Origin: a virus
IMG/VR virus record: IMGVR_UViG_3300050343_000285
Span: 1 to 64,000 of that record
Length of the DNA: 64,000 bases
Direction: 5' to 3' (one strand)
Below are positions 3,934 to 9,732 of the stretch, piece by piece. The notes beneath the pieces were generated by a model. The model saw nothing but the letters and a program-made list of their open reading frames with translations. It was not told where the DNA came from and made no database searches. The position numbers and the translations under genes were made by a program. The first letter of the stretch is position 1. Every line of letters starts with the position of its first letter.

Positions 3934-3942
3934 AATATAAAG

Positions 3943-4021
3943 ACTGGCGACCTGATTCGAACAGGCTATATAATTTATAACTAGATAGATATATGTGTCC
4001 CACCACACCGCACCAGCCAGA
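3943..4021 (-). tRNA. tRNA-like sequence, possibly degenerate
   Basis: Minus strand: acceptor arms CTGGC/GCCAG close a sequence with a clear T-arm (CCTG TTCGAAT CAGG). I could not fit a convincing anticodon stem with a seven-base loop in the AT-rich middle, so the isotype is unknown. It may be a decaying tRNA or an unusual one. It sits next to two clear tRNA genes. Confidence 0.45.
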
Positions 4022-7526: not shown

Positions 7527-7555
7527 AGTATACATTATCGGCATTATATTGTCAA
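7527..7555 (-). promoter_or_regulatory. Sigma70-like promoter
   Basis: TTGACA, 17-nt spacer with CCGATAATG, TATACT (minus strand), for the 7110 and 6602 genes. Confidence 0.8.
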
Positions 7556-7624: not shown

Positions 7625-7824
7625 CTTAGGCATTACTCGTACTAGAGCAACTCTTTCCCGTATACCTGTCAGGCTGCCAAGGTGGTATACGCCCTATCCA
7701 TCTTAATGTACGGCCATCGCACTAGGGACTTGCACCCTACAAGTATCTCCGAATGTTTGACGACAAAGCCTTATCGTATCACAATCTTGGGCTTGAATAC
7801 TTGGGTAACTCTTCCGTGCCATGT
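7625..7824 (-). ncRNA. Promoter-driven structured ncRNA candidate
   Basis: A consensus promoter (7831-7858) starts transcription near 7824, but no protein frame follows for about 280 nt. Pairing is extensive: ATGGCAC/GTGCGAT closes 7716-7822 (one mismatch), a T-arm-like hairpin TAGGG-TGCAAGT-CCCTA (7723-7739) lies directly inside it, a perfect 7-bp helix joins 7740-7746 with 7797-7803, and a separate 8-bp hairpin CGTATACC/GGTATACG spans 7659-7691. The first domain mimics a tRNA (acceptor next to T-arm) but at 107 nt is too long and has no usable D or anticodon arm. The 3' end is unknown. Confidence 0.6.
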
Positions 7825-7830
7825 ATTGTA

Positions 7831-7858
7831 AGTATACTATATTTATCGTCATTGTCAA
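7831..7858 (-). promoter_or_regulatory. Sigma70-like promoter with no ORF downstream
   Basis: TTGACA, 16-nt spacer with ACGATAAATA, TATACT (minus strand). It drives the ncRNA candidate. Confidence 0.8.
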
Positions 7859-9311: not shown

Positions 9312-9695
9312 TTATGCTACTGCCCAACCAAATAATGGCTTGCGGCAGTTCTTTACACGTTCGCAGTAAAACTGTCGAACATTACCATCCACTGTTTCAC
9401 ATGTTACCAAATGATTGGTACGCTGAAACTTTGGATCATTTCGACGATAGGTACTATGAGCATTCATTTTACGAATTGTCCGCTCGTCGAACTTTACAAC
9501 AGGCTCCACAACGCGAGCCAAAACACGTTTTGAGTCTCCGTGTAGAGGTTGCATATACTCAAAGTTGTATACTTCTCCAACTTGAGCATTGCACAAACTA
9601 GCACGAAAACCACCATATACAGCATAGATACCAAACGCAATCAACGCAAGGGCTCCTGCTGCTAAGATACCAGCAATCAACATTACATTATCCAT
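9312..9695 (-). CDS. Membrane-anchored protein, 127 aa
   Basis: N-terminal membrane helix (about residues 5-27, LIAGILAAGALALIAFGIYAV), then a soluble domain of about 95 residues rich in basic residues, containing YNFEYMQPLHGDSKRVLARVVEPV and ending near FYCERVKNCRKPLFGWAVA. The domain reads like a small beta-barrel with a repeated R/V pattern, but I cannot name it. The ATG at 9695 has AGGAG 7 nt upstream and fits the promoter at 9733-9761. Confidence 0.7.
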   Translation of the reverse strand: MDNVMLIAGILAAGALALIAFGIYAVYGGFRASLCNAQVGEVYNFEYMQPLHGDSKRVLARVVEPVVKFDERTIRKMNAHSTYRRNDPKFQRTNHLVTCETVDGNVRQFYCERVKNCRKPLFGWAVA

Positions 9696-9732
9696 TATAA
9701 AACTCCTAAGTGTGAAAACCAAACCTAAAACC

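Follow-up and report, generated by a model that had tools for sequence, protein, structure and literature searches.

A predicted tRNA-like RNA with an internal pseudoknot, conserved in structure among related phages

The window analyzed here (64,000 nucleotides, bases 1-64000 of a 194,787-base phage contig) encodes on its minus strand a putative 113-nt RNA, TLS-A, whose tRNA-like fold with an internal pseudoknot is almost certainly a conserved structure, as judged from its homologs. Together with TLS-B it belongs to a class defined through covariation in 41 distinct sequences, whose subfamilies share a pseudoknotted cloverleaf and little sequence. Phage non-coding RNAs beyond tRNAs are poorly charted. 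The predicted elements of the locus are the following.

7858-7831, minus strand: sigma-70-type promoter, TTGACA (7858-7853), 16-nt spacer, TATACT (7836-7831), 11 of 12 consensus matches
7823-7711, minus strand: TLS-A, tRNA-like RNA with pseudoknot, 113 nt, delimited by the homolog alignment; 115.7 bits with model R1, whose training set includes the window
7823-7816, minus strand: 5' strand of the acceptor-like stem P1, CAUGGCAC, pairing with 7722-7715
7722-7715, minus strand: 3' strand of P1, GUGCGAUG, pairing with 7823-7816
7815-7804, minus strand: D mini-hairpin GGAA-GAGU-UACC, 4 bp and a 4-nt loop with a conserved AG
7803-7797, minus strand: 5' strand of P2, CAAGUAU, pairing with 7746-7740
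7746-7740, minus strand: 3' strand of P2, AUACUUG, a perfect 7-bp helix with 7803-7797
7794-7790, minus strand: 5' strand of the pseudoknot helix S1, AAGCC, pairing with GGCUU at 7770-7766
7786-7781 with 7756-7751, minus strand: helix H3, enclosing the S2 hairpin
7777-7773 with 7764-7760, minus strand: S2 hairpin, whose loop AA-GGCUU-U contains the 3' strand of S1
7739-7723, minus strand: T-arm UAGGG-UGCAAGU-CCCUA, 5-bp stem and 7-nt loop, directly adjoining P2
7714-7711, minus strand: 3' end GCCG, a discriminator-like base plus CCG
7701-7622, minus strand: downstream module M2, five homologs, two compensatory pairs
7691-7684 with 7666-7659 (spanning 7691-7659), minus strand: 8-bp hairpin of M2, CGUAUACC/GGUAUACG, separate from TLS-A
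7650-7633, minus strand: second hairpin of M2, UUGCUC-UAGUAC-GAGUAA
7613-7568, minus strand: M4, a 3' repeat element, hairpin then AGUCAGCGAAA, with the next promoter after it at 7555-7527

In the hand alignment P1, the D mini-hairpin, the P2 arm and the T-arm of TLS-A follow one another without linker nucleotides, and the pseudoknot is formed by the S2 loop (AA, five nucleotides and U), which pairs with the five-nucleotide strand between P2 and H3. The copy of the window is among the weaker versions, with mismatches in P1 (G.G), H3 (U.U) and the D stem (A.A). Its P1 has seven of eight pairs, the G.G mismatch being present also in two near relatives; most relatives have 8 bp with one bulge. 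The 3' end is CCG in the window and G-CCA in three relatives (L005, L006 and L112). The first-pass annotation of this DNA had described an acceptor-like stem, a T-arm-like hairpin, a 7-bp helix and a separate 8-bp hairpin, and all of them are present; it missed the D mini-hairpin, two more helices, the pseudoknot and the GCCG end, and the 8-bp hairpin that it named is part of another module, which varies between relatives. The "tRNA-like ends" of which it spoke were borne out by covariation in the acceptor stem, the T-arm and the D mini-hairpin, by the encoded N-CCR 3' end and by agreement with the D-loop/T-loop rule presented below.

The folding energy of the region was unremarkable relative to dinucleotide shuffles (z = -1.5 for 227 nt and z = -1.2 for 127 nt), for which reason energy-based significance was dropped as evidence, and the minimum free energy (MFE) fold of the window sequence taken singly differs from the conserved fold. 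Since energy alone was not unusual, homologs were needed, covariation being what reveals structure. They were collected by scanning IMG/VR with DNA patterns and with the two neighboring proteins (236 aa and 171 aa), followed by local blastn. Ten distinct TLS-A versions (window, L083, L008, L087, L004, L003, L084, L005, L006 and L112) come from 11 phage records, the TLS-A of L082 being nearly the same as that of L083; a broad T-arm pattern scan gave mostly false hits and one new member, L112. Model R1 finds TLS-A once per record in 11 of 45 whole records.

The hand alignment of the ten sequences showed 380 of 392 cells paired and compensatory changes in 31 of the 40 pairs, pseudoknot included. 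As it was built to fit the structure, the latter is tested more fairly by an automatic MAFFT alignment, in which 88% of the cells are paired, 25 pairs have double changes, and the covariation score is 0.544 versus 0.232 +/- 0.021 in shuffled alignments (0 of 500); sliding the structure gives no more than 0.173. Covariation is seen in P1 (CAUGG/CCAUG, CACGG/CCGUG, AGUGG/CCACU, UGUGG/CCAUA) and in the D mini-hairpin (GGCA/UGCC, AGCA/UGCU, GAAG/UUUC), and S1 pairs in four unrelated sequences (AAGCC/GGCUU, GUACC/GGUAC, CAGAC/GUCUG, CCGGA/UUCGG). The T-loop of the hand alignment follows a 7-nt pattern, UGCRANY. Unconstrained MFE folding gives the cloverleaf in L004, L084, L005, L006 and L112. The alignment of homologs for covariation, a check proposed in the first-pass annotation, revealed compensatory changes throughout TLS-A. 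A decayed tRNA, which the resemblance of the T-arm and acceptor to those of a tRNA could suggest, or a functionless prediction artefact, with which the ordinary folding energy would agree, is very improbable, because the compensatory changes, which extend to the pseudoknot, and the presence of TLS-A or TLS-B in 40 of 44 virus records point to selection.

The promoter, already recognized as a consensus promoter in the first-pass annotation, has the same position in each of the ten TLS-A homologs, with P1 5-7 nt after the end of the -10 box. In the window the predicted start lies at about 7824 on the minus strand, one base ahead of P1, and the TLS-A transcript is thus predicted to begin at, or 1-2 bases from, the acceptor stem. 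Between this promoter and the next one at 7555 lie about 280 bases in which no reading frame is conserved. The earlier statement that no ORF follows the promoter was right in substance, although a 39-codon frame (MARKSYP...) exists. That TLS-A is a short protein-coding gene is hardly credible: the ATG of this frame lies inside P1 in the window, but 7 of the 10 homologs lack the frame or have it truncated, and no ribosome-binding site was seen upstream of it, and a small protein from this locus was rejected since the frame is not conserved. Elsewhere in the window, ARAGORN called an odd tRNA with anticodon "atct" (3941-4018, minus strand), which overlaps a reading frame and receives no support from Rfam. 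A protein search with a 729-aa protein of the window, made for a lead to the host, gave no match.

TLS-B, which model R1 matches weakly in L019/L022 (E = 0.28), comprises 31 distinct sequences from 29 records, 113-164 nt long as extracted. Its elements come in the same order as those of TLS-A (P1, D hairpin, P2, S1, H3, S2 and T-arm), and its S1 (AUAACC/GGUUAU or AUAAGCC/GGCUUAU), again within the S2 loop, is 100% paired, including a C-G to G-C swap. The covariation score is 0.253 versus 0.121 +/- 0.007. Both subfamilies end in N-CCA or a close variant. Model R2 finds TLS-B in 29 of the 44 virus records, none of which is a TLS-A record. That the two are never in the same record suggests that they are interchangeable and share a role, the records being related to each other and hence giving no clean statistics. 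One record with neither of them (L077) has a further version of the same order, read by eye from 11943 to about 12058, with P1 AACCUU/AGGGUU and S1 AAGGC/GCCUU in the loop of AUUGAC/GUCAAU; in three weak R2 matches (L179-L181), S1 was read by eye as AUAGCC/GGCUAU. RNAs of unlike sequence and the same shape in nearly all the related phages examined argue for a real RNA class. The exact TLS-B core pattern was absent from the species genomes scanned. Tandem tRNA-like RNAs, with spacings between a few and about 30 bases, were seen in the G029, G034 and G008 records, and in L006 the first is immediately followed by a second, longer tRNA-like candidate at about 9575-9730 (GAGUGUG...GUAGG-UGCAACU-CCUAC-CACACUC-GCCG).

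In the elbow of tRNA, D-loop bases 18-19 contact T-loop bases 55-56, and this 18/55 rule provides a built-in test of tRNA mimicry. Among the parsable tRNAs of these phages, those with U55 in the T-loop have GG in the D-loop in 299 cases, AG in 5 and TG in 3 (14 unread), and those with G55 have AG in 20 of 20, many of these 20 being closely related. Beside GG with U55, the pairing of AG with G55 is an alternative elbow in real tRNAs. TLS-A and TLS-B proper combine a UGC T-loop with an AG D-loop throughout, so that TLS-A appears to have the elbow of the phages' G55 tRNAs. In the remaining TLS-B members (B2, n = 21), the D-loop AUGC can pair with the T-loop GCAU/GCGU over 4-5 bp in 19 of 21. At the level of sequence, both devices point to an L-shaped tRNA-like body.

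The sequences that follow TLS-A differ among relatives. L005, L006 and L008 carry another version of M2. In L083, L084, L087 and L112, M2 is followed by a strongly conserved stretch of about 125 nt with a CCTTCCGGCTAGGCCGGGGAAGATTGGACCAACATCG core, absent in the window. L003 has a different module, M5, which also follows most TLS-B, and in L004 a likely ORF, preceded by a ribosome-binding site, comes directly after TLS-A. M5 is a structured-looking RNA (CCAGTAACCG...GGAGGATTTCCGTGGGCGGTTT...GGGGCGTAAAAG...CGCTGGTA; about 11387-11530 in L003, 12067-12200 in L077) that adjoins tRNA-like RNAs and has no Rfam match. M4 occurs on the minus strand of the window at 497, 972, 1997, 7578 and 9175, and in many copies in related loci, with a consensus hairpin of approximately CCTAATCC-N3-GGATTTGG followed by AGTCAGCSAAA; it sits between genes, often right ahead of the next promoter. 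Its 3' motif has 294 distinct matches in about 100 relative loci (one mismatch being allowed, so that part of them arise by chance), and M4 may be a terminator, a processing site or a mobile repeat. A Pistol ribozyme (Rfam RF02679, 51 bits) is found in a relative phage, L028, at 9452-9514.

We tentatively favor, with somewhat less than even confidence, a TLS-A locus that makes a stable trans-acting tRNA-like RNA engaging host tRNA-binding proteins. The sequences show the promoter, the fold, its conservation, the elbow rule and the lack of an Rfam match, and from these we infer a transcript, its processing, its binding and a benefit to the phage. Host RNA polymerase would start at the acceptor stem or 1-2 bases from it, and the transcript would fold into a linker-less four-way junction of P1, D mini-hairpin, P2 arm and T-arm. 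Its D-loop and T-loop would meet in an elbow of the tRNA type, and its 3' end resembles N-CCA. The stack of P2, H3 and S2 would replace the anticodon arm, its terminal loop being tied back as a pseudoknot, and since this loop would be locked, TLS-A could not decode. Because of the elbow and the N-CCA-like end, TLS-A may be bound by host proteins that recognize a tRNA by its elbow and acceptor end. Candidates are EF-Tu, enzymes of tRNA processing, CCA addition or modification, and tRNA-targeting defence nucleases, which TLS-A might occupy, recruit or divert in the course of an infection. That it is a decoy for a nuclease in particular is unlikely. Three observations count against a trans-acting mimic: the 3' end of the window is CCG and not CCA, which makes charging or CCA recognition doubtful without repair; the G.G mismatch of P1 is shared by the window and two near relatives; and the TLS-A of L004, just upstream of a likely ORF, fits a role in cis too.

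A cis-acting 5' element of an early transcript, serving in 5'-end decay protection, translation control or put-type antitermination, is a serious rival, given that the transcript is predicted to start where P1 does, although we consider it on the unlikely side. The spacing between the -10 box and P1 in all ten TLS-A members agrees with such an element, as do the likely ORF behind TLS-A in L004 and the 11 of 31 TLS-B members that lie 8-24 nt behind a promoter-like site. However, the usual neighbor downstream is not a gene but further structured RNA, after which another promoter comes. In eleven TLS-B copies the nearest promoter-like site is about 90-120 nt upstream, and an element of this kind would not need a conserved elbow or an N-CCA end. 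A gene leader as the only role was rejected, since it fits L004 and not most other TLS-A loci. It is also improbable that the tRNA-like modules are punctuation, cut by tRNA-processing enzymes to free the neighboring structured RNAs of the array. The joining of modules through short linkers such as AUACA(A), the tandem copies mentioned above and the variation of downstream modules between relatives would be expected from such processing, but L004 has no other RNA module after TLS-A, and TLS-A would require no cut at its 5' side, where the transcript itself is predicted to begin.

A more far-reaching reading, which we hold to be less likely than not, concerns a whole clade of large uncultured phages. 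Almost all of its members would have one of several sequence-unrelated, isostructural tRNA-like pseudoknot RNAs, placed first in an RNA array or close to its start; these RNAs could constitute a new class of tRNA-mimicking effectors that engage a specific host factor and are selected on shape and not on sequence. Models R1 and R2 offer a way to find relatives in phages that can be grown, in which the gain to a DNA phage from a tRNA-like RNA unable to decode could be studied.

The class is apparently undescribed so far. With Rfam 15 (4,227 families) searched at gathering and permissive thresholds, the TLS RNAs match no family above the gathering threshold, in line with the first-pass annotation, which knew of no matching RNA class and had proposed this search. 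ARAGORN makes no tRNA or tmRNA call for TLS-A, no nucleotide relatives of it were found among cultured phages and plasmids, and the open-access literature (preprints and most subscription papers being outside this scope) held no description of such an RNA. Like class I and II tRNAs, TLS-A has four arms, the elbow rule and an N-CCA-like end, its acceptor, D and T arms being supported by covariation. Unlike them, it lacks linkers 8-9, a variable loop and an anticodon loop, and its long arm is pseudoknotted, the loop being paired in 10 of 10 members where a tRNA has a free 7-nt anticodon loop. It was therefore rejected as a tRNA, since it does not match the Rfam tRNA model or ARAGORN and its loop is not free to decode. 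With tmRNA it shares the acceptor stem and T-arm, a P2 that replaces the anticodon stem and an internal pseudoknot, but the TLS RNAs are only about 110-160 nt long and have a D mini-hairpin in place of the unpaired D-loop of tmRNA; this assignment was also discarded, as there is no ARAGORN or Rfam tmRNA match and no conserved tag reading frame.

GOLLD and ROOL are several times longer than the TLS RNAs. Both are ornate bacterial or phage-linked RNAs that came from comparative genomics, partly of metagenomes (PMC2864571, PMC12286853). TLS-A is set apart from them by having no Rfam match. The tRNA-like structures of plant RNA viruses are viral tRNA mimics that, like TLS-A, use a pseudoknot. There the pseudoknot makes the acceptor at the 3' end of the genomic RNA, whereas in TLS-A it is predicted to lie in the anticodon-side arm of a separate transcript of a DNA phage. 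The TLS RNAs would be a new form of viral or phage tRNA-like RNA, and a categorically new role is possible.

Phage T4 also encodes, with its tRNAs, small stable non-tRNA RNAs, rnaC (species 1) and rnaD (species 2), whose role, to our knowledge, is still unsettled. Of these, rnaC resembles TLS-A in its acceptor-like end and its T-arm, but it has a canonical UUCGAAU T-loop and a 10-bp hairpin similar to a variable arm. The predicted fold of rnaC does not have the TLS-A layout (as given by a folding program that cannot show pseudoknots), nor does rnaD. They were not retained as the same family, since the fold differs and neither R1 nor R2 matches anything in T4. The RNA annotated as "species 1 RNA" in T4, rnaC, is nevertheless the nearest precedent in kind, with another fold.
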